64,000 nucleotides of DNA, taken from contig OX595999.1 in the NCBI GenBank assembly GCA_951394045.1, positions 1,302,001 through 1,366,000 on the forward strand. The letters are read 5' to 3'. The notes beneath the pieces were generated by a model. That model saw nothing but the letters and a program-made list of their open reading frames with translations. It was not told where the DNA came from and did no database searches. The position numbers were made by a program, and so were the translations under genes. Below, piece after piece: positions 10,809 through 63,524 of this stretch; within the stretch, counting starts at the first letter, position 1; each line of letters opens with the position of its first letter. The stretch is from Nitzschia sp. DOCU1 (lineage: Eukaryota > Bacillariophyta > Bacillariophyceae > Bacillariales > Bacillariaceae).

Positions 10809-13800
10809 TCAACCAGGAGAATCGTAGTGGCCCATGAGGCGACGGGCGTGACGGGAGTGCAAGATCCAGCCAAGGGGCTTGGTGAGATCATCCGACGGGT
10901 TGAGCACCCCAGGAATGTGTCGCATGATGATATCACCTTGTTCTTTCCAATCTTGAATGGCAAAGTATTGGATGAGGAGGTGACGAGATCTTTCGGTGGG
11001 TATCCGGGCATTGATCATTTTAATCGCGGACTGATTATCGCAGTAGAGTGGGGTAGGGTGTCTTTGCGGGAATCCGAGCTCCTGAAGGACAGCGCGAAGG
11101 TACTTGACTTGCTTGGCTGCCGTGACGGCCGCATAAAATTCCGCCTCGGTAGAGCTGGTAGCCGTGAGCGGCTGCGTTTTGCATTTGGACGAGACACATC
11201 CGCCGGCCATCATGATGGCAAAACCAGTGGTAGAGCGACGACGGCGGAGATCGTTGGCATGGGCAGCATCTATGAAGCAAGTGAGCTGGGCACCGGACTC
11301 GAGGACAGGGAATGCAGGAAGATTCGTTTCATTTCCAACATCAACAGCATAAAAGGGACACGGAGGAAGGGTCGGATCACGTTTGGAGCGACGGAAATGA
11401 ATGCCCCAGTCTCTGGTGCGACGAAGGTACTTGGTGATCTTCTTCAGCATGTGGAAGTGATATTCGCCAGGACAGGTGGCAAATTTGCTGAGAGTGATAA
11501 CCGCATAGCCAATGTCCGGTCGACAAGTGACGTATGCATATAGCAGTTCGCCAAGGAGCGTTCGATAAGAAAATCCCATCTTCTTCTCAAGCACTTTATA
11601 GGCATCAGTACCCTCTGCAACTCCAACAGTAGCATAGAGCGTAGGAATACAGTCGGTCGGAACGGGTGCGATGGGTTTGCTTGATTCCAGCGTTTCACCA
11701 GGCGAAGGTTGGTCCCAGCCATGAGTGCGGAGGACACGATCGATGTAGCTTTCGCAGGAGATCACAATTCTGTCAGCATACTGATGAACATCCACACCAT
11801 TGAAATCCTTGAGAGGTCCAAGGTATGAAAATGGGGGCTTGTCTTCAGATGGTAGCTGCAAAACCTCGCCGATACGTTTGTAGATACGCTTGGCAATCTC
11901 TTCCGACGGAGCAGCAAGTGCAAAGTCATCAACCTGCCGTAGCAAGAATATGGGAACATCATCAAAGTCACCGCGATAGATGGATTTATCATGGGTAGTA
12001 GCGCGAAAGTTGAAATCTTGCGACAACAGTATCGTAGAGATGTGTCGTTCCCAAAGCCTACCGGACTCGGGATGGCCTTGCAAAGCATGCTGGACAGGTA
12101 GAACTTTAGAGCGATCCACGGAATGACCAAATTTGTAGCGATACCACTCGGCATAGGCGTCATCAATCGCAACAAACGTAGGGCGTTCTGGAGGTGGCGA
12201 GTGGGCGTAGGCATCCTTGGCGTCCCCACCAAATACTCGATAATTAAGCTCAGCCGCAAGGGCAAAGAATAGACGCTGAACAGGTTGCTCGACGCAAGAA
12301 GAATATGTTTGAGCAAAGCGGTGCAAAGTGGGTGCAGCACGTGGCGATCCATCGCAGCAATTGCGAGCACGGCGAGTACCATCTCGTTTGATGTGATACT
12401 GCCAGTGTTGTCGTAGGACAATTGCGCCTGGGGGAGGATCAACTGGAGATCCATACATTCCAAGCTCGTGGAATTGGTCGAGCTGTTTGCGCTCCCCTGC
12501 TTCCCAAGCAGGCCACGTAGCAAGGTTCTTGAGCTTGCAGCGAGTAAATCGGCCGATGGCCTGTTCCGCATCAGTCGTAGCGCTTGATCGAATCGCATTG
12601 ATAGCACTGGCAGCTTCTCGATACGGAATGTTGGTCTCAGAGAAGTCGTCATCGGGGAATCTGACACTGGCAATGGTGCGGACATCGGCAATGGAAAGCC
12701 GATGGACATGTTCTGTGTCACGGGGCAGCTCGGGATTGTGCAAGTCCAGTTCTCGAACAGCATTGCGAACAGCTCCAGCAGTCAATCGCTTTTCCGGGGC
12801 AAACTCGATATCAAAGGATTTGACATTATCGTCCCGAAGCTTGCGCAAAGCTTCCAGAACTTCCTGCTTGGTAAATACCGCCTCTCCATTGATCTTGATC
12901 ACGTATGCGCCACGTATTTTGTTCGTGGTTGCCTTGTGCGAAGAGAAGAGCTTAGACGCACTGCTATTATTCTTGACATCGGAAATAAAGGCTCGGTTGT
13001 TCAGATCATCGGCTTCGATGGCAAGGCCAAAAGTTGCTCCACGGCAGGTTCGTGTCAAGGTCTTGGAGATGGTGTAAGAGAACGGACTGGTGCCAACATC
13101 AAAGATGGGAATCGTGGCCTCTTCGTCTTCGGCTGGCAATGCTTCACCATTTTGAGTGCGTTGCAGGTGCACTACATTTGGCGGCACGGCGTCAGGGGAC
13201 AGATCGTTCATGCCCTCATCGAATCGGGCATGCTTTGCAATCTTTACACGAGACGTCTCCGGATCATACCAGAGAATATTCTGAGTAGTATTGGGGACGT
13301 ACCCAAGAAAGATGCCCTTCCGGGAGTTGGGAACAAACTTGGCACTTCGCCTTCCAGGTGGCCTTACCCAAACTCTGCAACCAAAAGTGCGCAGTGCAGA
13401 CAGATCATCGACAAGGTCTTCCGCCATTTTCAACGGGGCTTGCGCTTGGTCTCGAGAGGGGAGGGAATTATCGATCCTCAGCCAATGATGAAATGCGTAG
13501 GGCCAGAAACGTACATCCAAATTAGCTCCAGTGAGCATGGCACGAATGGCATTGGCCGCCGTCAGGTGGGCTCGTTCCACAGGGCCATTTTGATTGGAGG
13601 CGTCTGCCCCTGTAGGCCGGATGGCATAGCCGAATTCTCGGAAGAGATCACGGACCTGAGGATTATTGTAGAGCTCTCCACCTTGATCCATGACCACATA
13701 TTTCCGATCACAATCGGGCGCATGTCGACGAAGAAAATCTCGGAGCCAGCTGAGCGGGGAGGCCTTGGAAATTCTTGTATCCCCGTGCTTCATGCGGGAG

Positions 13801-15212
13801 AAGTGGTCCGTAATGAGGATCCAGCACGTCTCTCCATTGATTCCCACAAAGTCCTTCGCACGCTCTGAATTCTTGGACCGTTGCCCCGCAAAAGAAAAGT
13901 CTACCGATAAGCCCTGATAAGGTCGTTCGGCAACACGCGTGGAATTGTTGCCCGCTGGTTCCTTGACTTGTTTCGCACGAATGCACGTGGGACAATTATC
14001 AAGAATCGGATTGATATGCTTGAATTTTGGTACGCCCTTGATGTGCTTGTGGGCGTTGAACAGGTAGTAATCTCCAGGGTGACCTAACCGTTGGTGCCAA
14101 AGGAGACGCTCGGTTTCTTTCTTGATGGCGTTGACCTTGGTGTGCTTTTGAATGAACGTATGGAATGGGATCGAGTGATGCATCCGCGCCAATTGTTCCA
14201 ATTCACTGCGTAGTTCAGTATACTTGTGTTCTTGATTCATGAATACGTAGTAGAGCGCAGCACGTTCGCAATCCTCGACAAAAGATTCATCCTGTTCCGC
14301 TAGTTTCGTAGCTCGATCCTTGGAGAAGGGAGGAATCAAAACTTGTGTGTAGCACTTGCCGTCCTTTAAAACTCCATGGAGCACAACGTCGCGAGATCGT
14401 TTCATCTTATGCGTGGCCCGATAGGTGAATGTGCCAGCATCATACATTTTCTCGATGGTTTCTCCAGATACGTCTCTTGGCTTCAATCCTGCCGCCTTGA
14501 TGAGGTCCCGTTCATCAATGACTGTGGTGCGAAGTGCCGGAGTGTAGAAAGCTCGAACCGCCAGAAAACCAGCCTCATTTGGAGCCGGCACATGAATATA
14601 GCCGTAGCCTTTGGGTACTGCATCAGATCCATGGACAGCAGGGGACAGTCGGATTGGGCACGGCTTCGTTCGGGTGAATTTGGTGTAGCCATGAAGCCAA
14701 TTGAATTGATCGGTGCAGGTCACGAAGGCTCCAGTGTCGATTTGGGCACGAAGTCCTTCATCTTCTTGATTCCCAGCATCAGAATGCGATTCCACAGACG
14801 GGAATCCCACAGCAGGTCCAATATCAATATCAATTGAGTTGACCGCTGCGGCAAGGTCATGAATCGATATTTCCTCGTCTTCGTCGTCGTTGGTGGCTCT
14901 CCCCACATTCGGTGATTCTTGCAATGAATTGACTGAGCCACACGCAGGGTCGGGAGGCTTTCGCGGAGGTTCCGACGGCGGGAGCAGTTTGACCGACAGT
15001 TCCGGCTCTTGTACTCTCCCCTCATTGCATGATGGAGAATCCCCATCCATCGGAGCTTTGAGAGAGGCAGAACAATGGGACGTTTTGACGGTGACGTCAT
15101 CTGTCAGAGTCGGAATGTTGGACTTTGGAGCCGAGGACAACCTACCGGTAGAGGGTAGTTCCAACTTTGTCCGGCTACCAAGACGCTTGGATTTTCGTGA
15201 ACGGCGGCGCAT
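10809..15212 (-). CDS. pol: Copia element 1 pol: protease, integrase, RT, RNase H (~1467 aa)
   Basis: One uninterrupted frame. Numbering includes two upstream codons: aspartic protease DTGA at 161-164; integrase zinc finger H375/H380/C409/C412; integrase catalytic D440, D511 and E548 (D-x36-E); RVT_2 reverse transcriptase in the second half with FGGDAKDAYAHSPP and the active site RQVDDFALAA, where Gln replaces the usual Tyr of YVDD; and RNase H ending in YCDNQSAIKM and HIPGVLNPSDDLTKPLG. The frame overlaps the end of gag by about 30 nt in the -1 phase (open up to 15257), so a gag-pol fusion by -1 shifting at GATTTTCCCC is possible; the first ATG at 15212 is the alternative. All catalytic residues are present. 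Confidence 0.9.
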   Translation of the reverse strand: MRRRSRKSKRLGSRTKLELPSTGRLSSAPKSNIPTLTDDVTVKTSHCSASLKAPMDGDSPSCNEGRVQEPELSVKLLPPSEPPRKPPDPACGSVNSLQESPNVGRATNDDEDEEISIHDLAAAVNSIDIDIGPAVGFPSVESHSDAGNQEDEGLRAQIDTGAFVTCTDQFNWLHGYTKFTRTKPCPIRLSPAVHGSDAVPKGYGYIHVPAPNEAGFLAVRAFYTPALRTTVIDERDLIKAAGLKPRDVSGETIEKMYDAGTFTYRATHKMKRSRDVVLHGVLKDGKCYTQVLIPPFSKDRATKLAEQDESFVEDCERAALYYVFMNQEHKYTELRSELEQLARMHHSIPFHTFIQKHTKVNAIKKETERLLWHQRLGHPGDYYLFNAHKHIKGVPKFKHINPILDNCPTCIRAKQVKEPAGNNSTRVAERPYQGLSVDFSFAGQRSKNSERAKDFVGINGETCWILITDHFSRMKHGDTRISKASPLSWLRDFLRRHAPDCDRKYVVMDQGGELYNNPQVRDLFREFGYAIRPTGADASNQNGPVERAHLTAANAIRAMLTGANLDVRFWPYAFHHWLRIDNSLPSRDQAQAPLKMAEDLVDDLSALRTFGCRVWVRPPGRRSAKFVPNSRKGIFLGYVPNTTQNILWYDPETSRVKIAKHARFDEGMNDLSPDAVPPNVVHLQRTQNGEALPAEDEEATIPIFDVGTSPFSYTISKTLTRTCRGATFGLAIEADDLNNRAFISDVKNNSSASKLFSSHKATTNKIRGAYVIKINGEAVFTKQEVLEALRKLRDDNVKSFDIEFAPEKRLTAGAVRNAVRELDLHNPELPRDTEHVHRLSIADVRTIASVRFPDDDFSETNIPYREAASAINAIRSSATTDAEQAIGRFTRCKLKNLATWPAWEAGERKQLDQFHELGMYGSPVDPPPGAIVLRQHWQYHIKRDGTRRARNCCDGSPRAAPTLHRFAQTYSSCVEQPVQRLFFALAAELNYRVFGGDAKDAYAHSPPPERPTFVAIDDAYAEWYRYKFGHSVDRSKVLPVQHALQGHPESGRLWERHISTILLSQDFNFRATTHDKSIYRGDFDDVPIFLLRQVDDFALAAPSEEIAKRIYKRIGEVLQLPSEDKPPFSYLGPLKDFNGVDVHQYADRIVISCESYIDRVLRTHGWDQPSPGETLESSKPIAPVPTDCIPTLYATVGVAEGTDAYKVLEKKMGFSYRTLLGELLYAYVTCRPDIGYAVITLSKFATCPGEYHFHMLKKITKYLRRTRDWGIHFRRSKRDPTLPPCPFYAVDVGNETNLPAFPVLESGAQLTCFIDAAHANDLRRRRSTTGFAIMMAGGCVSSKCKTQPLTATSSTEAEFYAAVTAAKQVKYLRAVLQELGFPQRHPTPLYCDNQSAIKMINARIPTERSRHLLIQYFAIQDWKEQGDIIMRHIPGVLNPSDDLTKPLGWILHSRHARRLMGHYDSPG

Positions 15213-15226
15213 GTCCAAGCTATTGA

Positions 15227-25302: not shown

Positions 25303-26058
25303 CTAGGGCATGTCCGAGTTTCTCTCTCGGTCATATAACTTCAATGAATTAAACAATGACGATTTGGGGACGTACACAGGAGCGGGTTGAGGTGGTAAAT
25401 TACCAGGTTGTTCCGCTGGAAGCGCAGCAGCGTCAGGCACCCTTACGTTTACGTTAATCGAAGGCGCCGGTGTCGGGATGAGTCCAATCACGTTGGGAGG
25501 AAGAGCGGGAATAGCAACCGGAGCAAATGGAGGTGGTGTGACAGGTGCGGGGAAAAACGTGGGCACAGGGATGGGCGGTGTTGTAGGCGTCCAACAGGTT
25601 TGTTGCACTTGTCCGCCTCCCACATAGGCACAGTCGCAGGTCTGCATTATCCCCTCTGGGGTAGTGAAGGTACTTCTAGCCCCCGTCACTTGGCACATAA
25701 TGGTACCGGCTGTGCGAACCTGACAGTAGGTGCAGGTGGTATCGCTGGATCCAGTGCAACTGCAAGAGTAGCCATCGGGGAACTCCCCAGCACATGTCGC
25801 GTCGCTATCCTGGCATTTATCGTGCATTCCTGGTCTTCCGCAAGCATAGACACTTCTTGGGTCTGTGGCTGTGCAAACGTTAGAAGTTTGGAGCTGACGA
25901 CGAAGAAAGTGGCGAGCACCGCCTCCGTTTTCTTCGTGCACATTGAATTCTTCAATGATCTCAAAATTGCCATTGTGCTCCCAAGAATCCTCGAGTTGGC
26001 CCAATGATGAGGACGGCATTAGCGCCAAAGATAGTAGACAAAAATTTCGAAAGAGCAT
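25303..26058 (-). CDS. Secreted 12-Cys protein, family member 7 (251 aa)
   Basis: The frame is open 86 codons further upstream, but the ATG at 26058 (MLFRNFCLLSLALMPSSSLG) begins a signal peptide aligned with the other members, so I place the start there. It has HFLRRQLQT, twelve cysteines and a linker containing FAPVAIPALPPNVIGLIPTP. The tail is shortened to LFNSLKLYDRERNSDMP. It pairs with member 8, with which it shares the linker and tail. Confidence 0.82.
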   Translation of the reverse strand: MLFRNFCLLSLALMPSSSLGQLEDSWEHNGNFEIIEEFNVHEENGGGARHFLRRQLQTSNVCTATDPRSVYACGRPGMHDKCQDSDATCAGEFPDGYSCSCTGSSDTTCTYCQVRTAGTIMCQVTGARSTFTTPEGIMQTCDCAYVGGGQVQQTCWTPTTPPIPVPTFFPAPVTPPPFAPVAIPALPPNVIGLIPTPAPSINVNVRVPDAAALPAEQPGNLPPQPAPVYVPKSSLFNSLKLYDRERNSDMP

Positions 26059-26656
26059 TGTTCTTGTAAGAGTGCTGCAGGATGTAGCATAAATTCGGCG
26101 AGGGGGGGGGATAATGAGCTCACAAGAAGCATTTCTTGGGTGACGGCACCAACGAAGTTGTTGTCGAGTAAGAAAAACATTGGCACGATTGCGAGGATCT
26201 GCCTGGGAGGAAAGAGAAAGCCACGAGCTACGAACCCGGAATGTGGCGTGCCTACATATGAGCAATAACCGTTGGAGGCATATTGTACCAGCTTTTAGCA
26301 TCGGAATATGTACCATTTCTGGCTTCCCTGCCTAAACGGCAAAACACGTCGGCCCAGTAAACTAAAGGTACAGTAGGTTTATTTTTGAAAGCAGCTCCAT
26401 CGAACTAATGCCGCAGTATCATACGACGATATTGGAGCCGCGTCGTTTACTACTGTGCGGACAGAAATTGGCGCACATCAGCCGATGGGGTCGGAGGTCC
26501 CGGAACCCACAACCCGCCCCCCTGATGATAGCAGAGGTACGGGTGCATAATTTCGCATCCTTTCGAATTTGGCTGTCATCTCAAGAATTCAACGACTCAA
26601 GTCTAGGGTTATATCTATTTTCTATGATGACCGGAAAATCCATTTGATGGCATTCT

Positions 26657-27403
26657 CTAAGGCATGTCCGAGTTTCTTTCTCCGTCGTACAACTTCAATG
26701 AATTAAACAACGACGATTTGGGGACGTACACAGGAGCCGCTTGAGGTGGTAGACTACCAGGTTGCTCCGCTGGAAGCGCCGTATCGGGCACTCTTACGTT
26801 TAAGTTAATCGAAGGCGCCGGCGTCGGGATAAGTCCAATGACGTTGGGAGGAAGAGCAGGAATAGCAACTGGAGTAAATGGAGGTGGTGTGACAGGTGCG
26901 GGAAAATATGTGGGAAGGGTGAATGGCGCTGGTGTAGGCGTCCAGCAGGTTTGTTGCACTTGTCCGCCTCCCACATAGGCACAGTCGCAGGTCTGCATTA
27001 TCCCCTCTACGTTAGCGAAGGTACTTCTAGCCCCAGTCACTTGGCACATAATGGTACCGGCTGTGCGAACCTGACAGTAGGTGCAGGTGGTATCGCTGGA
27101 TCCAGTGCAACTGCAGGAGTAGCCATCGGGGAACTCCCCAGCACACGTCGCGGTGCTATCCTGGCATTTATCGATCATTCCTGGAGTTCCGCACGCATAT
27201 ACACTTCTTGGGTCTGTGGCTGTGCAAACGTTAGAAGTTTGGAGCTGGCGACGAAGAAAGTGGCGAGCATCGTCCCCGTTTTCTTCGTGCACATTGAATT
27301 CTTCAATGATCTCAAATTTGCCATCGAGCTTCAAGTCCTCGAGTTGGCTCAATGTTGACGGTATTAGCGTCAACGCTAGAAGACAAAGACGTCCAAAGAG
27401 CAT
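26657..27403 (-). CDS. Secreted 12-Cys protein, family member 8 (248 aa)
   Basis: Sister of member 7. Signal peptide MLFGRLCLLALTLIPSTLS, HFLRRQLQT, twelve cysteines, a linker with FTPVAIPALPPNVIGLIPTP, and the tail LFNSLKLYDGERNSDMP. The 3' flanks of members 7 and 8 share GATGACCGGAAAATCCATTT just after the stop. It is the last minus-strand gene before the six-copy array, whose left target duplication begins 288 bp upstream of its start. Confidence 0.82.
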   Translation of the reverse strand: MLFGRLCLLALTLIPSTLSQLEDLKLDGKFEIIEEFNVHEENGDDARHFLRRQLQTSNVCTATDPRSVYACGTPGMIDKCQDSTATCAGEFPDGYSCSCTGSSDTTCTYCQVRTAGTIMCQVTGARSTFANVEGIMQTCDCAYVGGGQVQQTCWTPTPAPFTLPTYFPAPVTPPPFTPVAIPALPPNVIGLIPTPAPSINLNVRVPDTALPAEQPGSLPPQAAPVYVPKSSLFNSLKLYDGERNSDMP

Positions 27404-27698
27404 TGTAGTATTACTGCAGAGCGTAGCAGGAATTCGGCGAGGGAGGAAACAAGTTTGTCGAGGACAAGAAGTATCTCTTGGATGACAGCACCAACGAAGT
27501 AGTTGGGTTGAAAAACATTATGGCACGATTGCGCAAATGAGGAAGATAGAGAAAGCCACGAGTTAAAAACCCGGAATCTGGCGAGTGACTGCGTATTTTA
27601 AAAAAAAACCGTTGGAGACATAATGTAGCTTTACTATCGGAATGGGTGCCCTTTCTCGCTTCGTTCCTGACCGCCAAACCACCTCAGCCCAGTAAATA

Positions 27699-29083
27699 GG
27701 CCAATGTCCGGCCACGTAGGTAGCTCAAGTGTAAGCCTTTGACAAAAAGACCTCAGAATCATCATAATTGAGCCATTTTGGCCGATTCTAAACTGTCAGA
27801 AAAGTGTAAGCCACCAACAGCCCACCAATGGAATTGCCTCAAAAAAGTGTAAAACATCATTTAGAAAGTCATTATTTTCGGTTCTTGACGTCACTGAACC
27901 CAATGCCACGGTCCGATTCATGGTCATACGAGTCGACATGTTCGTATCAGTCGAAGAACTATCCACTCGCGACTGCAACTGCCTTCGGCCGTTGCCTCTC
28001 TATTTCCTTTGTAATGGTCCCCTATGCACTTGGTGACCTATTCAACAATGAATCTATGTTCTTCTCGAGCTTTCTATTAGTATTATACGAGCAATCCTAT
28101 AGTGTTCCAAAGAGGCCGCCAGAAGTTGATTGTTGCATTCGTGGTATCCTCTCAAAAGAAGAAATGACCGACGAGTTCAACAAGACAGTGGCGGGGCGGC
28201 AGCTTTGTTGAGGTAGCCACGAATAATGAAGTGCATTGTAGCGTAATTATAGTGGTAGTGGCAGCTTGTAGATGAATTCAGAGCGATCCAAAGTTGATTG
28301 TAGCGTTTGTTGGCAGGGAAACAAACCACCCACGAACATAATGATCGACGAGATGAAGCTACGCCGCGGCGGCTTCATAGAGGTGGAAGCGAGTAATGAA
28401 GTGTATTGTAGTGTAGTTCTAGTGGCGGTGGTAGCTTGTAGACGAATCAGCAGTGATTCAAAGTTGATTGTCGCATTCATTAGCAAGGAAACAAATGCCT
28501 GACGAGTTGAAAGTGGCGGTGGCGATGACAGCTTCGTGTTGGGAGTATATTCACAGCAAAGGCCACAACAGGCGAATTGTAGAAATGCTGGGTGGTGAGC
28601 AGGTTGTCAAGTTTAAATGACAATGTTAGTGAAAGGCATGAATCAAAATACTTTGGTCTGCGATGGAATGCACTTACCTTGGTAATATTGAAGTAGTAAT
28701 TAAATAATAACTATCAATCGAATAATACTGCTGCTGCAACGACTGTATAGCGCCAATCAAGGAGTTTATATACATGGGGTGGTAGGAGGACAGCAGCAGT
28801 ACTCGAGAAGTACTCGCAAAGAAAGTTTGACAGTGAAAGAATGGATTTTTGTGTTGCGCCATTGTCGCCGCTCGTCCGACCAATTTGGACCAATTCGACT
28901 TAATGGCAGGCAGCGCAAGCCAGCCAATGATTGTCATCGTGGTAGGTCATCCCGTTAAAATATATCTCTTGTTATTGAGAATAGCGAATTATTGCCGTCC
29001 TTTTGTTCTTTGAATTTTTTCCTTTCTTTTTTCCCCTTTCTTCTTTATAAAATCTTAGCTACCTACGTGACCGGACATAAGCC
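27699..29083. repeat. Array unit 1, 1385 bp
   Basis: Left TIR at 27699-27725 and right TIR at 29057-29083. Subterminal AAGTGTAA motifs recur near 27729, 27803 and 27845, as expected of transposase-binding sites. Three decayed ~170-bp internal repeats begin at 28125, 28293 and 28463. The frames of 60-127 codons inside have no recognisable domain and are not called as genes. Confidence 0.92.
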
Positions 29084-29089
29084 ATTCTC

Positions 29090-30474
29090 GGCCAATGTCC
29101 GGCCACGTAGGTAGCTCAAGTGTAAGCCTTTGACAAAAAGACCTCAGAATCATCATAATTGAGCCATTTTGGCCGATTCTAAACTGTCAGAAAAGTGTAA
29201 GCCACCAACAGCCCACCAATGGAATTGCCTCAAAAAAGTGTAAAACATCATTTAGAAAGTCATTATTTTCGGTTCTTGACGTCACTGAACCCAATGCCAC
29301 GGTCCGATTCATGGTCATACGAGTCGACATGTTCGTATCAGTCGAAGAACTATCCACTCGCGACTGCAACTGCCTTCGGCCGTTGCCTCTCTATTTCCTT
29401 TGTAATGGTCCCCTATGCACTTGGTGACCTATTCAACAATGAATCTATGTTCTTCTCGAGCTTTCTATTAGTATTATACGAGCAATCCTATAGTGTTCCA
29501 AAGAGGCCGCCAGAAGTTGATTGTTGCATTCGTGGTATCCTCTCAAAAGAAGAAATGACCGACGAGTTCAACAAGACAGTGGCGGGGCGGCAGCTTTGTT
29601 GAGGTAGCCACGAATAATGAAGTGCATTGTAGCGTAATTATAGTGGTAGTGGCAGCTTGTAGATGAATTCAGAGCGATCCAAAGTTGATTGTAGCGTTTG
29701 TTGGCAGGGAAACAAACCACCCACGAACATAATGATCGACGAGATGAAGCTACGCCGCGGCGGCTTCATAGAGGTGGAAGCGAGTAATGAAGTGTATTGT
29801 AGTGTAGTTCTAGTGGCGGTGGTAGCTTGTAGACGAATCAGCAGTGATTCAAAGTTGATTGTCGCATTCATTAGCAAGGAAACAAATGCCTGACGAGTTG
29901 AAAGTGGCGGTGGCGATGACAGCTTCGTGTTGGGAGTATATTCACAGCAAAGGCCACAACAGGCGAATTGTAGAAATGCTGGGTGGTGAGCAGGTTGTCA
30001 AGTTTAAATGACAATGTTAGTGAAAGGCATGAATCAAAATACTTTGGTCTGCGATGGAATGCACTTACCTTGGTAATATTGAAGTAGTAATTAAATAATA
30101 ACTATCAATCGAATAATACTGCTGCTGCAACGACTGTATAGCGCCAATCAAGGAGTTTATATACATGGGGTGGTAGGAGGACAGCAGCAGTACTCGAGAA
30201 GTACTCGCAAAGAAAGTTTGACAGTGAAAGAATGGATTTTTGTGTTGCGCCATTGTCGCCGCTCGTCCGACCAATTTGGACCAATTCGACTTAATGGCAG
30301 GCAGCGCAAGCCAGCCAATGATTGTCATCGTGGTAGGTCATCCCGTTAAAATATATCTCTTGTTATTGAGAATAGCGAATTATTGCCGTCCTTTTGTTCT
30401 TTGAATTTTTTCCTTTCTTTTTTCCCCTTTCTTCTTTATAAAATCTTAGCTACCTACGTGACCGGACATAAGCC
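29090..30474. repeat. Array unit 2, 1385 bp
   Basis: Copy of unit 1, preceded by the spacer ATTCTC at 29084-29089. I noticed no sequence difference from unit 1. Confidence 0.92.
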
Positions 30475-30480
30475 ATTCTC

Positions 30481-31865
30481 GGCCAATGTCCGGCCACGTA
30501 GGTAGCTCAAGTGTAAGCCTTTGACAAAAAGACCTCAGAATCATCATAATTGAGCCATTTTGGCCGATTCTAAACTGTCAGAAAAGTGTAAGCCACCAAC
30601 AGCCCACCAATGGAATTGCCTCAAAAAAGTGTAAAACATCATTTAGAAAGTCATTATTTTCGGTTCTTGACGTCACTGAACCCAATGCCACGGTCCGATT
30701 CATGGTCATACGAGTCGACATGTTCGTATCAGTCGAAGAACTATCCACTCGCGACTGCAACTGCCTTCGGCCGTTGCCTCTCTATTTCCTTTGTAATGGT
30801 CCCCTATGCACTTGGTGACCTATTCAACAATGAATCTATGTTCTTCTCGAGCTTTCTATTAGTATTATACGAGCAATCCTATAGTGTTCCAAAGAGGCCG
30901 CCAGAAGTTGATTGTTGCATTCGTGGTATCCTCTCAAAAGAAGAAATGACCGACGAGTTCAACAAGACAGTGGCGGGGCGGCAGCTTTGTTGAGGTAGCC
31001 ACGAATAATGAAGTGCATTGTAGCGTAATTATAGTGGTAGTGGCAGCTTGTAGATGAATTCAGAGCGATCCAAAGTTGATTGTAGCGTTTGTTGGCAGGG
31101 AAACAAACCACCCACGAACATAATGATCGACGAGATGAAGCTACGCCGCGGCGGCTTCATAGAGGTGGAAGCGAGTAATGAAGTGTATTGTAGTGTAGTT
31201 CTAGTGGCGGTGGTAGCTTGTAGACGAATCAGCAGTGATTCAAAGTTGATTGTCGCATTCATTAGCAAGGAAACAAATGCCTGACGAGTTGAAAGTGGCG
31301 GTGGCGATGACAGCTTCGTGTTGGGAGTATATTCACAGCAAAGGCCACAACAGGCGAATTGTAGAAATGCTGGGTGGTGAGCAGGTTGTCAAGTTTAAAT
31401 GACAATGTTAGTGAAAGGCATGAATCAAAATACTTTGGTCTGCGATGGAATGCACTTACCTTGGTAATATTGAAGTAGTAATTAAATAATAACTATCAAT
31501 CGAATAATACTGCTGCTGCAACGACTGTATAGCGCCAATCAAGGAGTTTATATACATGGGGTGGTAGGAGGACAGCAGCAGTACTCGAGAAGTAGTCGCA
31601 AAGAAAGTTTGACAGTGAAAGAATGGATTTTTGTGTTGCGCCATTGTCGCCGCTCGTCCGACCAATTTGGACCAATTCGACTTAATGGCAGGCAGCGCAA
31701 GCCAGCCAATGATTGTCATCGTGGTAGGTCATCCCGTTAAAATATATCTCTTGTTATTGAGAATAGCGAATTATTGCCGTCCTTTTGTTCTTTGAATTTT
31801 TTCCTTTCTTTTTTCCCCTTTCTTCTTTATAAAATCTTAGCTACCTACGTGACCGGACATAAGCC
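30481..31865. repeat. Array unit 3, 1385 bp, with a private substitution
   Basis: Copy of unit 1, preceded by spacer ATTCTC at 30475-30480. At 31595 it has G where the other units have C (AGTAGTCGC versus AGTACTCGC). This is the only difference between units that I noticed. Confidence 0.92.
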
Positions 31866-31871
31866 ATTCTC

Positions 31872-33256
31872 GGCCAATGTCCGGCCACGTAGGTAGCTCA
31901 AGTGTAAGCCTTTGACAAAAAGACCTCAGAATCATCATAATTGAGCCATTTTGGCCGATTCTAAACTGTCAGAAAAGTGTAAGCCACCAACAGCCCACCA
32001 ATGGAATTGCCTCAAAAAAGTGTAAAACATCATTTAGAAAGTCATTATTTTCGGTTCTTGACGTCACTGAACCCAATGCCACGGTCCGATTCATGGTCAT
32101 ACGAGTCGACATGTTCGTATCAGTCGAAGAACTATCCACTCGCGACTGCAACTGCCTTCGGCCGTTGCCTCTCTATTTCCTTTGTAATGGTCCCCTATGC
32201 ACTTGGTGACCTATTCAACAATGAATCTATGTTCTTCTCGAGCTTTCTATTAGTATTATACGAGCAATCCTATAGTGTTCCAAAGAGGCCGCCAGAAGTT
32301 GATTGTTGCATTCGTGGTATCCTCTCAAAAGAAGAAATGACCGACGAGTTCAACAAGACAGTGGCGGGGCGGCAGCTTTGTTGAGGTAGCCACGAATAAT
32401 GAAGTGCATTGTAGCGTAATTATAGTGGTAGTGGCAGCTTGTAGATGAATTCAGAGCGATCCAAAGTTGATTGTAGCGTTTGTTGGCAGGGAAACAAACC
32501 ACCCACGAACATAATGATCGACGAGATGAAGCTACGCCGCGGCGGCTTCATAGAGGTGGAAGCGAGTAATGAAGTGTATTGTAGTGTAGTTCTAGTGGCG
32601 GTGGTAGCTTGTAGACGAATCAGCAGTGATTCAAAGTTGATTGTCGCATTCATTAGCAAGGAAACAAATGCCTGACGAGTTGAAAGTGGCGGTGGCGATG
32701 ACAGCTTCGTGTTGGGAGTATATTCACAGCAAAGGCCACAACAGGCGAATTGTAGAAATGCTGGGTGGTGAGCAGGTTGTCAAGTTTAAATGACAATGTT
32801 AGTGAAAGGCATGAATCAAAATACTTTGGTCTGCGATGGAATGCACTTACCTTGGTAATATTGAAGTAGTAATTAAATAATAACTATCAATCGAATAATA
32901 CTGCTGCTGCAACGACTGTATAGCGCCAATCAAGGAGTTTATATACATGGGGTGGTAGGAGGACAGCAGCAGTACTCGAGAAGTACTCGCAAAGAAAGTT
33001 TGACAGTGAAAGAATGGATTTTTGTGTTGCGCCATTGTCGCCGCTCGTCCGACCAATTTGGACCAATTCGACTTAATGGCAGGCAGCGCAAGCCAGCCAA
33101 TGATTGTCATCGTGGTAGGTCATCCCGTTAAAATATATCTCTTGTTATTGAGAATAGCGAATTATTGCCGTCCTTTTGTTCTTTGAATTTTTTCCTTTCT
33201 TTTTTCCCCTTTCTTCTTTATAAAATCTTAGCTACCTACGTGACCGGACATAAGCC
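31872..33256. repeat. Array unit 4, 1385 bp
   Basis: Copy of unit 1, preceded by spacer ATTCTC at 31866-31871. Confidence 0.92.
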
Positions 33257-33262
33257 ATTCTC

Positions 33263-34647
33263 GGCCAATGTCCGGCCACGTAGGTAGCTCAAGTGTAAGC
33301 CTTTGACAAAAAGACCTCAGAATCATCATAATTGAGCCATTTTGGCCGATTCTAAACTGTCAGAAAAGTGTAAGCCACCAACAGCCCACCAATGGAATTG
33401 CCTCAAAAAAGTGTAAAACATCATTTAGAAAGTCATTATTTTCGGTTCTTGACGTCACTGAACCCAATGCCACGGTCCGATTCATGGTCATACGAGTCGA
33501 CATGTTCGTATCAGTCGAAGAACTATCCACTCGCGACTGCAACTGCCTTCGGCCGTTGCCTCTCTATTTCCTTTGTAATGGTCCCCTATGCACTTGGTGA
33601 CCTATTCAACAATGAATCTATGTTCTTCTCGAGCTTTCTATTAGTATTATACGAGCAATCCTATAGTGTTCCAAAGAGGCCGCCAGAAGTTGATTGTTGC
33701 ATTCGTGGTATCCTCTCAAAAGAAGAAATGACCGACGAGTTCAACAAGACAGTGGCGGGGCGGCAGCTTTGTTGAGGTAGCCACGAATAATGAAGTGCAT
33801 TGTAGCGTAATTATAGTGGTAGTGGCAGCTTGTAGATGAATTCAGAGCGATCCAAAGTTGATTGTAGCGTTTGTTGGCAGGGAAACAAACCACCCACGAA
33901 CATAATGATCGACGAGATGAAGCTACGCCGCGGCGGCTTCATAGAGGTGGAAGCGAGTAATGAAGTGTATTGTAGTGTAGTTCTAGTGGCGGTGGTAGCT
34001 TGTAGACGAATCAGCAGTGATTCAAAGTTGATTGTCGCATTCATTAGCAAGGAAACAAATGCCTGACGAGTTGAAAGTGGCGGTGGCGATGACAGCTTCG
34101 TGTTGGGAGTATATTCACAGCAAAGGCCACAACAGGCGAATTGTAGAAATGCTGGGTGGTGAGCAGGTTGTCAAGTTTAAATGACAATGTTAGTGAAAGG
34201 CATGAATCAAAATACTTTGGTCTGCGATGGAATGCACTTACCTTGGTAATATTGAAGTAGTAATTAAATAATAACTATCAATCGAATAATACTGCTGCTG
34301 CAACGACTGTATAGCGCCAATCAAGGAGTTTATATACATGGGGTGGTAGGAGGACAGCAGCAGTACTCGAGAAGTACTCGCAAAGAAAGTTTGACAGTGA
34401 AAGAATGGATTTTTGTGTTGCGCCATTGTCGCCGCTCGTCCGACCAATTTGGACCAATTCGACTTAATGGCAGGCAGCGCAAGCCAGCCAATGATTGTCA
34501 TCGTGGTAGGTCATCCCGTTAAAATATATCTCTTGTTATTGAGAATAGCGAATTATTGCCGTCCTTTTGTTCTTTGAATTTTTTCCTTTCTTTTTTCCCC
34601 TTTCTTCTTTATAAAATCTTAGCTACCTACGTGACCGGACATAAGCC
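33263..34647. repeat. Array unit 5, 1385 bp
   Basis: Copy of unit 1, preceded by spacer ATTCTC at 33257-33262. Confidence 0.92.
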
Positions 34648-34653
34648 ATTCTC

Positions 34654-36038
34654 GGCCAATGTCCGGCCACGTAGGTAGCTCAAGTGTAAGCCTTTGACAA
34701 AAAGACCTCAGAATCATCATAATTGAGCCATTTTGGCCGATTCTAAACTGTCAGAAAAGTGTAAGCCACCAACAGCCCACCAATGGAATTGCCTCAAAAA
34801 AGTGTAAAACATCATTTAGAAAGTCATTATTTTCGGTTCTTGACGTCACTGAACCCAATGCCACGGTCCGATTCATGGTCATACGAGTCGACATGTTCGT
34901 ATCAGTCGAAGAACTATCCACTCGCGACTGCAACTGCCTTCGGCCGTTGCCTCTCTATTTCCTTTGTAATGGTCCCCTATGCACTTGGTGACCTATTCAA
35001 CAATGAATCTATGTTCTTCTCGAGCTTTCTATTAGTATTATACGAGCAATCCTATAGTGTTCCAAAGAGGCCGCCAGAAGTTGATTGTTGCATTCGTGGT
35101 ATCCTCTCAAAAGAAGAAATGACCGACGAGTTCAACAAGACAGTGGCGGGGCGGCAGCTTTGTTGAGGTAGCCACGAATAATGAAGTGCATTGTAGCGTA
35201 ATTATAGTGGTAGTGGCAGCTTGTAGATGAATTCAGAGCGATCCAAAGTTGATTGTAGCGTTTGTTGGCAGGGAAACAAACCACCCACGAACATAATGAT
35301 CGACGAGATGAAGCTACGCCGCGGCGGCTTCATAGAGGTGGAAGCGAGTAATGAAGTGTATTGTAGTGTAGTTCTAGTGGCGGTGGTAGCTTGTAGACGA
35401 ATCAGCAGTGATTCAAAGTTGATTGTCGCATTCATTAGCAAGGAAACAAATGCCTGACGAGTTGAAAGTGGCGGTGGCGATGACAGCTTCGTGTTGGGAG
35501 TATATTCACAGCAAAGGCCACAACAGGCGAATTGTAGAAATGCTGGGTGGTGAGCAGGTTGTCAAGTTTAAATGACAATGTTAGTGAAAGGCATGAATCA
35601 AAATACTTTGGTCTGCGATGGAATGCACTTACCTTGGTAATATTGAAGTAGTAATTAAATAATAACTATCAATCGAATAATACTGCTGCTGCAACGACTG
35701 TATAGCGCCAATCAAGGAGTTTATATACATGGGGTGGTAGGAGGACAGCAGCAGTACTCGAGAAGTACTCGCAAAGAAAGTTTGACAGTGAAAGAATGGA
35801 TTTTTGTGTTGCGCCATTGTCGCCGCTCGTCCGACCAATTTGGACCAATTCGACTTAATGGCAGGCAGCGCAAGCCAGCCAATGATTGTCATCGTGGTAG
35901 GTCATCCCGTTAAAATATATCTCTTGTTATTGAGAATAGCGAATTATTGCCGTCCTTTTGTTCTTTGAATTTTTTCCTTTCTTTTTTCCCCTTTCTTCTT
36001 TATAAAATCTTAGCTACCTACGTGACCGGACATAAGCC
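34654..36038. repeat. Array unit 6, 1385 bp
   Basis: Last copy, preceded by spacer ATTCTC at 34648-34653. Its right TIR ends at 36038 and is followed by the target duplication AGTAAATA instead of ATTCTC. Confidence 0.92.
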
Positions 36039-36046
36039 AGTAAATA

Positions 36047-37370: not shown

Positions 37371-38054
37371 ATGCTTTTTCGAAGCTTTTTTCTTCTATCA
37401 TTGGCGCTAATACCCTCAACATTGGGCCACAACGAGGATTTGAAGCACGATGGCAACTTTGTGATCAGTGAAGAATTCAGCGTGCAGCATGCCAACGAAG
37501 AGGACGGTCACCACTTTCTTCGTCGCCATCTCCAAACCTGCACAACCAACGAAATCAATGTCTATGCCTGCAGAGGGGCTGGAGGAGGTGACTCCGATCC
37601 TTGTAAGGATAGCGACGCGACGTGTCCTGGGGAATTCCCTGACGGCTATCCGTGCAGTTGCGGCACATGTTCATACTGTCAGGTTCGCACAGCAAATGCC
37701 ATTCTGTGCCAAGTGACGGGGGCTAGAAGTACTTTCGTTGCTTTGGGTGGTACAATGACGACTTGCGAGTGTACCGATGTGGGAGGCGGACAAGCCAGTC
37801 AAACCTGCTATCAGCCCTCTCCACCACCCATCCCTCTGCCCACTTTTTCCCCGGTACCCGCCGTCACACAACCTCCTATTCCTACGCCAGCGCCATCGAT
37901 TAACTTAAACGTAAGAGTGCCTGACGCTGCGCTTCCAGCGGAGCAACCTGGTAGTCTACCGGCCGAACCGGCTTTTCCTGTGAACGTTCCCAAAACGTCG
38001 TTGAGGGATGAACTTAAGCTGTATACTCGGGTAAGAAACTCGGACATGCCCTAG
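37371..38054 (+). CDS. Secreted 12-Cys protein, family member 9, inverted (227 aa)
   Basis: Signal peptide MLFRSFFLLSLALIPSTLG, then HFLRRHLQT and twelve cysteines. The loop between Cys6 and Cys7 is shortened to two residues (CSCGTCSYC). A linker with INLNVRVPDAALPAEQPGSLP matches members 7 and 8, and the tail is LRDELKLYTRVRNSDMP. It lies on the opposite strand to the other eight, on the far side of the six-copy array. The mixture of member 3/4-like and member 7/8-like segments suggests recombination. Confidence 0.82.
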   Translation: MLFRSFFLLSLALIPSTLGHNEDLKHDGNFVISEEFSVQHANEEDGHHFLRRHLQTCTTNEINVYACRGAGGGDSDPCKDSDATCPGEFPDGYPCSCGTCSYCQVRTANAILCQVTGARSTFVALGGTMTTCECTDVGGGQASQTCYQPSPPPIPLPTFSPVPAVTQPPIPTPAPSINLNVRVPDAALPAEQPGSLPAEPAFPVNVPKTSLRDELKLYTRVRNSDMP

Positions 38055-39958: not shown

Positions 39959-40184
39959 CAATTGCACTGACTGATGTCGAGAGAGAAGTACCGGCAGACT
40001 CGTCGTCTCGGCCGACGTTCCTATCAGAGGCCGGCTAGTTCTGGACTGGTATATTTTGAATTATAATCACAAGAAGGGAAGGTCATACAATTATTCTAGA
40101 GTAAATAGATTAGAAAGAGCCGACTGCAAATGAATAGTCGCGCCTTGGAAATGTAAAGTCCCTCACAGAGAAAAAATAAACACT

Positions 40185-49502: not shown

Positions 49503-52500
49503 TCAGGTGGCGGCTGAGAGAGCGACCATCTCGCTTTCGGTTGAGCTGAGACAGATCTCAGTCTGGAGCTTGCTGCCCCAGGTCAGCGGCACACCTGCAA
49601 AGAAGATGACGAAGCCAGTTCTGGATCGGGCCATGTTGGGATCGGTCATGGCCTGCCATGTTCGGCCAGAGTCCCACTCGCCAGCGAAAGAGGCGTCGAC
49701 AAAGCACTCAAAGCTTTTCGACAGATCCGGCTTGAGATGGAGCCCTTTGCCTCTGGTCTTCAGAAGGTAGCGGCCAATCCTTTTCACTGCCTGTCCATGC
49801 AGCTTGGTTGGGTTCGACATGAAACGGGCGCATTGATGGACGGCATAGGCCAGGTCCGGTCGTGTCGACTTCTCAAGGTAGTTGAGCTTACCGATCACAG
49901 ATCGGTAGTTGAAATGCTCATCGAAGGGCTCTCCGCCTATGTCTGCATGGAGGGTCACAGAGGAGAGCGACGGCGTTGTTGCTGTCTTGGACTCACCTGT
50001 GAGGCGGAGGTCCTCAAGGATGGAGTCGATGAGGTGCGGCTGGGTCAGAGTCATGGAGCCGTCGTCCTCATACTCGACGTTGACGCCAATGTAGTCCTCA
50101 ATGGGGCCTTGGTCATCGACGTCAACGTTATCCTTGATGAGTTCGATAACGTTGTCGACCTGTGTCTTGGTCGGCCCGCCGATGATTACATCATCAACGT
50201 AGAGAAGTAGAACACAGCCCTCATAATAGAAGACACAAGGATCCACTTTGGATGCAGTGAATCCTAGGTCCTCCAGGTACTTCTTCGCGAACAGAAAGTA
50301 GGTTCTGCCGCTAGCATGTCCTCCATAGATGTTTTGGAGGATCTGTAGAACGTGTCCTTTCCTCGACCCCTTGAAGGCGAAACCTCGAGGGATCTCAAGG
50401 AACTTGGGGCGCTCAACTTTGGCATGGGGGTAAGCCAAGACAAAGTCGAGTTGGCGGGTGACCCACTTGTGTAGGATAAAGTAGATCAAGAAGAGCCTAA
50501 TCGTGGGCCATGCCACGACTGGGGAGTAGGTCTGATCATAGTCCAGACCAGGCCTTTCCTTGTGTCCGCCAAGATTGAGCCGAGATTTCCACTTGTAGAC
50601 CTTTCGGGTCTTGATCTCGCGCTTTCGCTTCATTGCCCATACGGCAGGGAGAACGATAGCTCCCTCTGGAACCTCGGAGCGAGGGATCATCTTCCAATGT
50701 CCCCTCGACTCATGGTCCCGAACTTCCTTGAGCATCGACTTCAGGAACTCTACTCGATCAGGGGCCTTGAGAGCCTGATCAAGATAGAGAGTGTCCGGGT
50801 CGTTCGTTGCCTTGAATAGCACCCAGGGATGCTGTTCTTGGTAGTCAAGCTCATGGGTTCCATCGTACTCGAGAGTCGTCACGAAGCTCTCGAGTCGACT
50901 GGGCAGTGATCCTGTGAATCCGCCAAGGAATCGATTGGGTCGACGACTTGTTCGACCCGATCGAGTCACGACTGGCGGTGGCGGCGGCTCTTGCTCATCG
51001 TCCTGTGGTAAGACTTGGGCTCTTGGTGCCCTAGTTGCCCTTGATGGCCTCAATGGGGCTCCCTCTGAGACGGTAGTGGTCTCGGTGGGGGCCGTCTGTG
51101 GTTCGTTGTTGACCACTTCCTGCGTTGGTGGCTCGTCGCCGCTTGGCTGCGCGCCATCTGGTCCCTCATGGAAGTAGGTGCTGACATGCCATGTAGGAAG
51201 TGGCAACTTGAACTCGGAGTCAGGCCTCGTTGTGTCGAAATGATCATCATACTCCGCATGAAACGTCGGAGAGATGTGGCCTGTCGCCAGATTCAACAGC
51301 AGGCCAATCGAGCTGCCGTGCTGGGGAGATGGCCCCAGATAGATCGACACCTTGGCTCGATCGGACCAAACGTGTCGAGTTCGTCGTTTTCCCGAGGCTA
51401 GTTCGCCGTCTAGCTGGTAGGCGGGGCAGCCGAAGGTGTGCAAGTGATTGTAGTTGATCACTGGCTCACCTACTTGGGAGAATAGAAGAAGTGGGACCTG
51501 CCCTGTCTTGGAGCTAACCACACAGTTGTGTGTGTGGTTGACGGTCCTTAGGGCATACGGCCAGAGATGGGCGTTGATGGCATTAGGCCATCGTCTCTTG
51601 GCGTGGATCAAGACTGCTCTAGCAGCCTCTTGAAGATCTCGAATGCGCTTCTCAGCGACGCCGTTTGCATGGTGGGCGTGGGCCCCACAGAAGCTGAGCG
51701 TTTGCCCTGACTTCTTGCATGCGTCCTCCCAGGCCTTTTCAGCAAACCTGCCATTGTCACAATGATAGTGACGGATGATGACGCCTCTCGAGCGGGAGTA
51801 TTGCTCGAAGGCATCCTTGGCTGCAACAGTGTCAAGGGCGTTGCAAGTCTCAGAGAAGTGCACATAGCTGAGGCTTGTGTAGTGGTCCACGAAGATCGTC
51901 GCGTAATGCAGACGTCTCTTCGTGATGAAGCCCCTCATTTGCCCAAACAGACCAGGGGTAGTCGATTGTAGTTGATCGACCGAGACACAGTCGCCTGGTC
52001 TAGTGATGACCGGCAGAGCTCTCTTGTTTGGGGTCGCCTTGGTTCGCCATGGTCGGTGCGTTGCCTTGCCAATGAGGCAGGCGGCACACTTCGGTGGGCG
52101 CGCCTTGGCTATCTTGGATGGCAGCAGACCGTCCTTGACCATCCGCAGGAGACGCCTAGGCCCGATGTGGCCGAGTCTCTGATGCCATGAGAGGTAGAGC
52201 TGGCGTGGGCTCAGCTCGTCCTCAATTTCCTGAGTGTCGTTCGGTAGGTCGGCCTCAGTTAGGCCGGCCGTTCCGAAAGCGACAGGTCTCGGGCCCATGG
52301 GCAGCTCTGCCTCTTCAGGCAGATCTTGGTCTTGGTCTTCGTCGTCCGATTCTGAGCAATCGTCGCTCTGGGTGTCCTCGTTTGACTCCTGGTCGGATTG
52401 CTCATCATCGCTCACGACGTTGCGTCGGAACAGCGCTGGAAGGTGGCCCTCCTCGTCGTGCAATGACACTGATTGGTCGAATTGCACGTAGTCCTCTGCA

Positions 52501-53450
52501 AACATCGGTGATGAGTGCAGTATCGAGACGTTGGAGCCTGTCCCGATTGGCACGGTCCTCTTGGACTTGCCATTGTTGAAGTGTAGGACCGTGCAGTCGG
52601 CATCGGCGGTGGCATAGCCACAGTCGCCTTGATCCCTTAACACTTGGCTCCAATGATGGATCGCAAGTATCCTTTCATTGTTAGTCGGCATGTAGAGTGT
52701 TTTGGGGATGATGTGGACATGTCGATGTCCGTCGTCGTCATCCCAGAACCATCGTACGGTTCCTGAGAATTGGACCTTTGTCTTTGAGTTGCCAGCTCCG
52801 ATGATGACGCTCTTGATTGGGACCATCGGCCCAATGTAGTCCGTCTTGTTCGGTGTGGACGAGTAAGAGCTGTGTGTGTCTAGTCGGATGGGGTAGCTGT
52901 GGGTGTCGAATGACACCATCCTTGGCGACCTCAAACCGACAAAACCCTCATCGTCGGGGTCCGGATCCGGAGGCCGGTCATGCTCGTCGCATGGTGGCCA
53001 GTCCGGCTCACAGTCGTAAGACGGTGGGGACTGATCCGGTTCCACGATGTCTCTTGGTCGCCGGGCTTGCTTTGGGCGTCGCCGGCGCACTTGTACGTGT
53101 ATATAGAGCCACGCCCGCCATCCAAGGTCAGTCTTGGACCCGATCCGGGCCGAGTTTCTCTTGGTACCGCGCACATAATAGCGGGGGCAATAGTGACTTG
53201 GGCGCTTGAGGCGTCCCTTTGTTCTCCTCTTGATGAACCATAGGAGAGAGTTCGCGATGTACATAACCATCCATAGTGGGACGCAAATCACTGCAATCAG
53301 CATGTGAATTGCGCCACCAAGGAAGGTGATCAAGAACAGGGACAGTCCCCTCATGACCAGGCGGTGCAGGGCCCTGAATAGCCCCGCTGCCACTTGGTTC
53401 ATAAGTTGGCTGCAGAAGGTGATAAGCGACGTCACCTTCCGCCAGAGGCT
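49503..53450 (-). CDS. pol: Copia element 2 pol, main part (~1315 codons)
   Basis: Open in the gag frame after the UGA; there is no ATG at the start, so readthrough is the natural expression route. A hydrophobic region near residues 28-70 (LSLFLITFLGGAIHMLIAV, then VPLWMVMYIANSLLWFI) precedes basic and acidic linkers. A protease-like IRLDTHSSYSS follows, with DTHS in place of the usual DTGA. Next come the integrase zinc finger (HQRLGH...CAAC), catalytic residues in SVDQLQS, HCDNGRF and GVAEKR, and RT with LLLYVDDVIIGG. The RNase H start ends in STESEMVALSAAT before a TGA at 49503-49505. The frame continues open beyond it. Confidence 0.88.
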   Translation of the reverse strand, partial: SLWRKVTSLITFCSQLMNQVAAGLFRALHRLVMRGLSLFLITFLGGAIHMLIAVICVPLWMVMYIANSLLWFIKRRTKGRLKRPSHYCPRYYVRGTKRNSARIGSKTDLGWRAWLYIHVQVRRRRPKQARRPRDIVEPDQSPPSYDCEPDWPPCDEHDRPPDPDPDDEGFVGLRSPRMVSFDTHSYPIRLDTHSSYSSTPNKTDYIGPMVPIKSVIIGAGNSKTKVQFSGTVRWFWDDDDGHRHVHIIPKTLYMPTNNERILAIHHWSQVLRDQGDCGYATADADCTVLHFNNGKSKRTVPIGTGSNVSILHSSPMFAEDYVQFDQSVSLHDEEGHLPALFRRNVVSDDEQSDQESNEDTQSDDCSESDDEDQDQDLPEEAELPMGPRPVAFGTAGLTEADLPNDTQEIEDELSPRQLYLSWHQRLGHIGPRRLLRMVKDGLLPSKIAKARPPKCAACLIGKATHRPWRTKATPNKRALPVITRPGDCVSVDQLQSTTPGLFGQMRGFITKRRLHYATIFVDHYTSLSYVHFSETCNALDTVAAKDAFEQYSRSRGVIIRHYHCDNGRFAEKAWEDACKKSGQTLSFCGAHAHHANGVAEKRIRDLQEAARAVLIHAKRRWPNAINAHLWPYALRTVNHTHNCVVSSKTGQVPLLLFSQVGEPVINYNHLHTFGCPAYQLDGELASGKRRTRHVWSDRAKVSIYLGPSPQHGSSIGLLLNLATGHISPTFHAEYDDHFDTTRPDSEFKLPLPTWHVSTYFHEGPDGAQPSGDEPPTQEVVNNEPQTAPTETTTVSEGAPLRPSRATRAPRAQVLPQDDEQEPPPPPVVTRSGRTSRRPNRFLGGFTGSLPSRLESFVTTLEYDGTHELDYQEQHPWVLFKATNDPDTLYLDQALKAPDRVEFLKSMLKEVRDHESRGHWKMIPRSEVPEGAIVLPAVWAMKRKREIKTRKVYKWKSRLNLGGHKERPGLDYDQTYSPVVAWPTIRLFLIYFILHKWVTRQLDFVLAYPHAKVERPKFLEIPRGFAFKGSRKGHVLQILQNIYGGHASGRTYFLFAKKYLEDLGFTASKVDPCVFYYEGCVLLLYVDDVIIGGPTKTQVDNVIELIKDNVDVDDQGPIEDYIGVNVEYEDDGSMTLTQPHLIDSILEDLRLTGESKTATTPSLSSVTLHADIGGEPFDEHFNYRSVIGKLNYLEKSTRPDLAYAVHQCARFMSNPTKLHGQAVKRIGRYLLKTRGKGLHLKPDLSKSFECFVDASFAGEWDSGRTWQAMTDPNMARSRTGFVIFFAGVPLTWGSKLQTEICLSSTESEMVALSAAT

Positions 53451-63264: not shown

Positions 63265-63454
63265 GTTGGGTGTGGCGAGTTTTTGTAATTTTCATGCCGA
63301 CAGGCGCAACTTTGAGGCGAAAAATGAAGACAAATGCTGAAGATCCGTCGGGAGTCACTGTGACCTTGCCATATCAGAATTTCACGAGCTTTTCAACGGT
63401 GTAAAGTTTAGTAAGTGGGGACAGAGTTAAGTCCGTCTAACGAAAAGGATTAAA

Positions 63455-63509
63455 AAATGTGACACTATAGTGTCACATTTTAAAAATGTGACACTATAGT
63501 GTCACATTT
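63455..63509. repeat. Right subterminal double palindrome of the PiggyBac-like element
   Basis: Two perfect 26-bp palindromes (63455-63480 and 63484-63509), each with the core TGTGACACTATAGTGTCACA, are separated by 3 bp. They lie 11 bp inside the right end and match the less perfect copies at the left end. Confidence 0.9.
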
Positions 63510-63524
63510 TACGATTGGAGTTAA

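Follow-up and report, generated by a model that had tools for sequence, protein, structure and literature searches.

Spacers in tandem transposon arrays of the diatom Nitzschia sp. DOCU1 suggest asymmetric strand transfer by a Dada-like transposase

The window analysed here is a stretch of 64,000 nucleotides from the diatom Nitzschia sp. DOCU1 (contig OX595999.1, positions 1,302,001 to 1,366,000), which contains a tandem array of a transposon. Six direct copies of a 1385-bp unit follow one another on the forward strand with a period of 1391 bp and span 27699-36038: units 1 to 6 occupy 27699-29083, 29090-30474, 30481-31865, 31872-33256, 33263-34647, and 34654-36038, respectively. They are separated by five 6-bp spacers (29084-29089, 30475-30480, 31866-31871, 33257-33262, and 34648-34653), all of which read ATTCTC on the same strand, a sequence foreign to the local flanks. 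The whole array is bracketed by AGTAAATA at 27691-27698 and 36039-36046, an 8-bp target-site duplication; a third occurrence of this octamer at 40100 is unrelated to the array. In all these respects the sequence bears out the initial annotation, six being the number of copies in the assembly. A single column of 1385 varies among the units: position 31595, in unit 3, is G, and the corresponding base of the other units is C. The terminal inverted repeats, also claimed in that annotation, are 27 bp long with 24 matches and three mismatches. The unit is a non-autonomous element, the longest open reading frames of which encode 127 and 87 amino acids.

A paralogous site without an array lies at 26356-26386, where AGTAAA and 12 other bases are followed by TAGGTTTATTTTT. 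The left-flank identity is 84.6%, as in a diverged paralogue, and the target sequence is single, not doubled. This fits a real 8-bp duplication at the window array. The left flank of the array sits inside a duplicated cluster of paralogous small frames with a common tail, found at 25303-26316 (-), 26657-27403 (-), and 37371-38054 (+).

The first 114 bases of the window unit match 40 scored places in the 52-Mb assembly of 63 contigs, many of them regularly spaced. By searching for end and junction patterns and then reading the ends, at least 19 tandem arrays were found; this number is a lower bound, as the patterns tolerated just 2 or 3 mismatches. By their ends, arrays A to I (A is the window array) belong to a first family, which comprises two non-autonomous kinds of unit and the full-length units of array I. 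Arrays J to O and Q form a second family with related ends, whereas R, S, and T form a third family with different ends. One further candidate, C14:1903134-1906144, was rejected before the arrays were counted: it consists of a single element, which has a duplication of its own, CATTTGAC, and adjoins another right end. At C16:1427199-1430592, a left end lies between two outward-facing right ends, and the flanks do not match. More distant relatives of the transposase occur in long open frames at C9:569k, C13:170k, C14:392k and 437k, C10:436k and 447k, and C6:2.83M. Outside this genome, no relatives were confirmed in the viral contigs or prokaryote genomes searched, and the first-family junction was not found in those viral contigs.

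In 15 of the 19 arrays (B, D, E, F, G, H, I, J, K, L, M, N, R, S, and T), the spacer, read in element orientation, is identical to the part of the left flank that abuts the left end. The left end is the 5' end of the transposase in the one full-length array examined for each of the three families. The flank-derived spacer is the last 6 bp of the flanking octamer, with 7 bp in one array and 5 bp at one junction, and in none of the 19 arrays does it correspond to the first bases of the right flank. The rule holds across the two families with related ends (12 of 16 arrays) and the third with different ends (3/3). F and G lie in one segmental duplication, so that 14 of 18 independent arrays carry a left-flank spacer. 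When G, which shares the origin of F, is omitted from the 16, there are 11 left-flank matches in 15, against at most 6 in 20000 shuffles of the spacers among arrays. A flank-derived spacer of short, fixed length at joined ends, as would be expected of the joining step in copy-out/paste-in transposition, known from bacterial insertion sequences, is present in these 15 arrays.

The 40 junctions comprise 35 of 6 bp, two of 7 bp, one of 5 bp, and two of 10 bp; none is of 8 bp. The 7-bp spacer of array T matches the final 7 bases of the duplication at that array, which means that the joining point can shift by one base while its source is still the left flank. One of the three junctions of array M (C12:1874500-1874504, L063) is of 5 bp (ATATC), with neighbours of 6 bp (AATATC). 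The spacers of the remaining four arrays are foreign to their sites: A and C (6 bp), O (10 bp), and Q (7 bp).

In the outer duplications, all eight positions agree in 16 of the 19 arrays, seven in I and O, and five in L, in which the outer flanks differ and the spacer follows the left flank. Among 14 single copies with both ends, the duplication is complete in 12, agrees at seven positions in one, and is absent in one. The flanks of a third-family pair at C3:2444009-2445332 do not match, and those of the C16:1427199-1429348 pair agree at one of eight positions. A set of 31 target octamers, compiled without these two pairs and without G, is diverse with an A/T-rich core (0.71-0.77 at positions 2-7).

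In arrays A to I, the units of one array resemble one another much more closely than they resemble those of other arrays. The number of variable columns is 1 in A, B, and G, 0 in C, E, and H, 2 in I, 6 in D, and 9 in F; in the third family it is 0 in R and 2 in S. These 11 arrays carry the statement on homogeneity, while K to Q were compared by unit length and of J the first unit was read. Between arrays, first units of the same kind diverge by 0.1% (F/G) to 7.9% (A/C); across the two non-autonomous kinds of the first family, the divergence of first units is about 40%. Stepwise insertion, in which further copies arrive from elsewhere beside a resident element, is contradicted for the homogeneous arrays by this contrast; in addition, ordinary insertion would add 8-bp duplications. 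IS30 circles are described as able to target their own ends (PMC9333248), and the unit lengths are strongly unequal in Q (939 and 1498) and T (3176 and 1498) and differ by 38 bp in N. These lengths, which would suit stepwise insertion, speak against perfect homogeneity everywhere. As an explanation of the arrays as a whole, however, stepwise insertion is very improbable.

Two cases show events that took place at the site itself. The first unit of array E is identical over 1499 aligned bases to a single copy at C4:3.41M, yet the spacer of E is its own flank. This means that insertion preceded dimerisation, which took place at the site. F, with six units, and G, with three, represent one insertion carried by two segmentally duplicated loci, C1:3863000-3884000 (L018-L020) and C1:3838500-3848400 (L021), respectively, with 99.6-99.8% identity in aligned pieces. 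One base is present in F1 to F5 but not in F6 or G1 to G3. For this insertion, copy number has thus changed in place, and unit sequence with it. An extra right-end fragment follows the three units in the shorter copy of the segmental duplication.

Near-identical units in A to I, R, and S and the change between F and G are what plain tandem duplication would also produce, whether the two copies of the 8-bp target duplication underwent unequal crossing-over or slippage during replication; arrays of a coral miniature inverted-repeat transposable element have been attributed to slippage (PMC2872659). However, such a process would leave an 8-bp spacer, found at none of the 40 junctions, and it cannot yield the foreign spacers of four arrays. 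Unequal crossing-over was therefore rejected as the origin of the dimer. Tandem duplication can account for expansion past the first dimer, not for the dimer, and as a full explanation we give it hardly any weight.

In full-length members of the three families, the sequences indicate a Dada-like DDE transposase that contains a 3'-5' exonuclease insertion. The first- and second-family proteins are 49% identical; the third-family protein shows 19% identity over the alignment and, against the relative P0002, 26% over the best-matching part. Asp419, Asp493, Asp970-x2-His973, and Glu1138 are invariant in all six aligned proteins, which include the three families. By this alignment, the proteins seem to possess the DDE triad with DxxH after the second D that characterizes Dada. 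As in the Dada members of Ectocarpus and Laccaria, the second D and DxxH are separated by a DEDDy exonuclease. The Pfam domains above the cut-off in the three transposases are the 3'-5' exonuclease and, in one of them, DUF6729, for which a literature search yielded nothing of use. At their C-termini, the J protein and P0001 show a C-x2-C...H...C stretch, whereas the R protein and the N-terminal cysteines only partially fit the zinc fingers of Dada (N-terminal CCCC, C-terminal CCHC). The array I transposase has stops inside its best genome matches. In its C10 copy, a zinc-finger-like C-terminal stretch follows past a stop in another frame (L024 3694-4116 (-)).

Protein searches gave at least 5, at least 9, and at least 23 relatives among the 7981-7996 candidates that had the most words in common; the two relatives with an organism name among the matches listed for one transposase were from Skeletonema menzelii and Sparassis crispa. 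Among 12 relatives searched at E values up to 1, the exonuclease was matched in eight and ZSWIM1-3_RNaseH-like weakly in one (E 0.19), and an IS256-type Pfam model in none. A PDB profile search matched mainly exonucleases. The predicted structure of P0024 has a mean predicted local distance difference test score of 73.6, and in that of P0007 the DDE part is of low confidence. The P0024 fold matches listed all lie on the exonuclease part and include no IS256, hAT, or Mutator chain.

Three features of Dada are absent. The target duplication is 8 bp, as described above, and not 6-7 bp. The window and seven array loci contain no Rfam match at gathering score that would indicate insertion into small RNA genes. 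The inverted repeats are not subterminal only: the very ends of the window unit pair at 24 of 27 bases. Because of these three differences, and because the Dada proteins were compared by description only, the group is not a certified Dada family; it is probably best called Dada-like, with a mode of action that, judged from the sequences, resembles that of IS256-type elements.

From the spacer pattern, we infer that the transposase makes the tandem junctions by asymmetric strand transfer, the opening step of copy-out/paste-in transposition: it would join the right terminus, at its 3' end, to the same strand about 6 nucleotides outside the left terminus. If both termini belonged to one copy, a circle with a spacer of 6 bp would result. 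If the reaction took place between sister copies, or if a circle lay beside a resident left end, a tandem dimer would form in place, with a spacer from the local left flank. Insertion of the junction would then produce the 8-bp duplications. Dimers and larger multimers would also move as one unit and take the old spacer to the new site. Unit number would later change in place, as it did in F and G, most likely by unequal exchange. Arrays with local spacers would thus have formed where they stand, whereas A, C, O, and Q would be moved multimers. Taken as a whole, this proposal of transposase-made dimers, mobile multimers, and expansion in place seems to us probable.

The window array is, on this proposal, a multimer that formed elsewhere and moved as a unit. 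Since the spacer is local in 15 of the 19 arrays, ATTCTC is most likely a remnant of the left flank at a former site. The initial annotation had likened ATTCTC to a coupling sequence from a donor site, which was largely right, and its idea that the concatemer transposed as one unit is the best reading of a foreign spacer in this array. Had the array re-dimerised at its left end after the move, TAAATA would be expected, and none of the five spacers matches it. This means that the units multiplied before the move or by recombination. The other route named in the annotation, homologous recombination into a resident copy, is disfavoured for a divergent resident by the near-identical units and might apply to an identical one.

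Rolling-circle amplification of an excised circle, whose concatemer then inserts or recombines into a resident copy, was also part of that annotation. A foreign spacer repeated five times, a single outer duplication, and near-identical units are all in keeping with it in the window array. However, the own-site spacers of the 15 arrays indicate formation in place after insertion, and F and G, being one insertion, differ in copy number. Furthermore, Pfam recognises no rolling-circle initiator domain in the three transposases, where it shows the exonuclease and, once, DUF6729. With no positive evidence for it, and with the change between six and three units in place making it unnecessary, this route is unlikely.

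Cut-and-paste with staggered cuts might also leave 6 nucleotides of flank on one end of the excised element; host repair would close the ends into a circle, which would re-enter the donor site or another copy through homologous recombination. This would produce spacers derived from the flank, as well as dimers whose outer duplications are unchanged, and it is compatible with both local and foreign spacers. It must, however, use the left flank alone in all 15 traceable arrays of three families, and re-entry at the same locus must be favoured over other copies. We regard this course of events as unlikely, too.

Several points weigh against the asymmetric strand transfer proposed above. Relatives of this transposon group are usually regarded as cut-and-paste elements, as are eukaryotic members of the hAT/MuDR/P/Kolobok/Dada group. 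All evidence comes from one assembly, and the circle and the figure-eight are hypothetical intermediates. Excision with 6-nucleotide overhangs followed by end joining could mimic the spacer, if not easily its one-sidedness. Four of the 19 arrays carry foreign spacers, two of which are not 6 bp (10 and 7 bp). Their donor flanks, including the ATTCTC-flanked donor locus that the annotation had led one to expect, were not found among 30 left flanks, a comparison that left out the flanks of R, S, and T and of single-ended copies; the best agreement was 4 or 5 of 6 bases. The two fold searches with the P0024 model match the exonuclease part, so that they tell nothing about the predicted DDE fold. 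Finally, the direction is one-sided here, whereas ISCth4 is reported to have used either end as donor in vitro, with five of eight joins from right to left and three in the opposite direction (PMC7780238).

The window contains other mobile elements. Two frames with RVT_2 and GAG-pre-integrase domains, at 10812-15218 (-) and 49506-53435 (-), are presumably of the Copia type. A 945-residue frame with DDE_Tnp_1_7 at 60430-63264 (-) is taken to be of the piggyBac type; just past it, a 29-bp palindromic unit occurs twice in tandem (63453-63511).

Copy-out/paste-in is presented in the cited papers as a bacterial pathway, and KolobokP is the one eukaryotic case among them that raises a copy-out-like circle (PMC9587614). 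The signature in the 40 natural junctions gives donor end, recipient end, and spacer length, and thereby makes the pathway directly testable in a eukaryote. A dimer made by a transposase would also be a concrete first step for turning transposons into tandem repeats. We lean, with less confidence than for the proposed origin of the arrays, towards a wider proposal: the whole Dada-like group with a built-in exonuclease may use bacterial-style copy-out/paste-in, in which the right end always attacks the left flank, circle junctions have 6 bp, and insertions duplicate 8 bp; the arrays would preserve these junctions as fossils, and mobile multimers would seed satellite-like arrays.

The initial annotation knew of no described transposon system that regularly does this. 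The statement holds in part, but IS30, IS256, Dada-U1, and KolobokP are precedents for tandem copies or circles. The passages cited here from an Arabidopsis long-read study of mobile elements contain nothing on such junctions (PMC12312487), and, in the titles and abstracts shown for the open-access matches listed, neither flank-derived spacers nor copy-out junctions are described for Dada. Coral CMITE elements resemble the present ones in forming tandem arrays of full-length non-autonomous elements. They differ in their TTAA duplications, piggyBac-like nature, and proposed origin by slippage, and the passages concerned mention no flank-derived spacer rule (PMC2872659). KolobokP multimers are described as lying usually within one target duplication, and excision footprints are compared with the copy-out of IS3/IS256, with a circular intermediate left possible. 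Unlike the units here, those of KolobokP share long terminal direct repeats, and the multimers are ascribed to unequal crossover or to a circle between these repeats (PMC9587614).

Dada elements are similar in the DDE triad with DxxH and, in the members from Ectocarpus and Laccaria, in the DEDDy exonuclease between the second D and DxxH (PMC3706591). The present elements differ in that they have inverted repeats at their termini, insert into diverse targets, and are flanked by clear duplications of 8 bp. Dada-U1 has an apparent 8-bp duplication, CTGCGAAT, and its tandem copies are parted by GCGAAT, the last 6 bp of it; Kojima and Jurka chose 6 bp as the true duplication length (PMC3706591). 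The spacer rule offers a second reading of this question: judged from the published description, the duplication might be 8 bp and the junction 6 bp.

IS30 is reported to make tandem dimers and circles; its dimers arise by the same reaction between two copies, probably also on a partly replicated chromosome (PMC9333248). The head-to-tail dimers, the short spacer, the formation between replicated copies, and the ability to insert as a unit are shared with the proposal made here, whereas IS30 has a 2-bp spacer and a 2-bp duplication, and the present arrays reach six units. The IS256 family is likewise close. Tandem dimers and circles of IS256 are named in the title of a cited paper (PMC9333248, PMC3299598), and IS256 circles with flank-derived spacers are described (PMC7780238). 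In IS256, the direct repeat is longer than the spacer, and both IS2 and the IS256 of Tn4001 use their right end as donor and their left end as recipient (PMC3299598). ISCth4, also of this family, has spacers of 6-8 bp, 8-bp duplications, and A/T-rich targets (PMC7780238). IS256 is bacterial and its steps were shown biochemically, whereas those proposed here are deduced; nevertheless, the diatom elements share the flank-derived spacer, the 8-bp duplication, and the A/T-rich target with ISCth4 and, on the proposal made here, the right end as donor with the IS256 of Tn4001.

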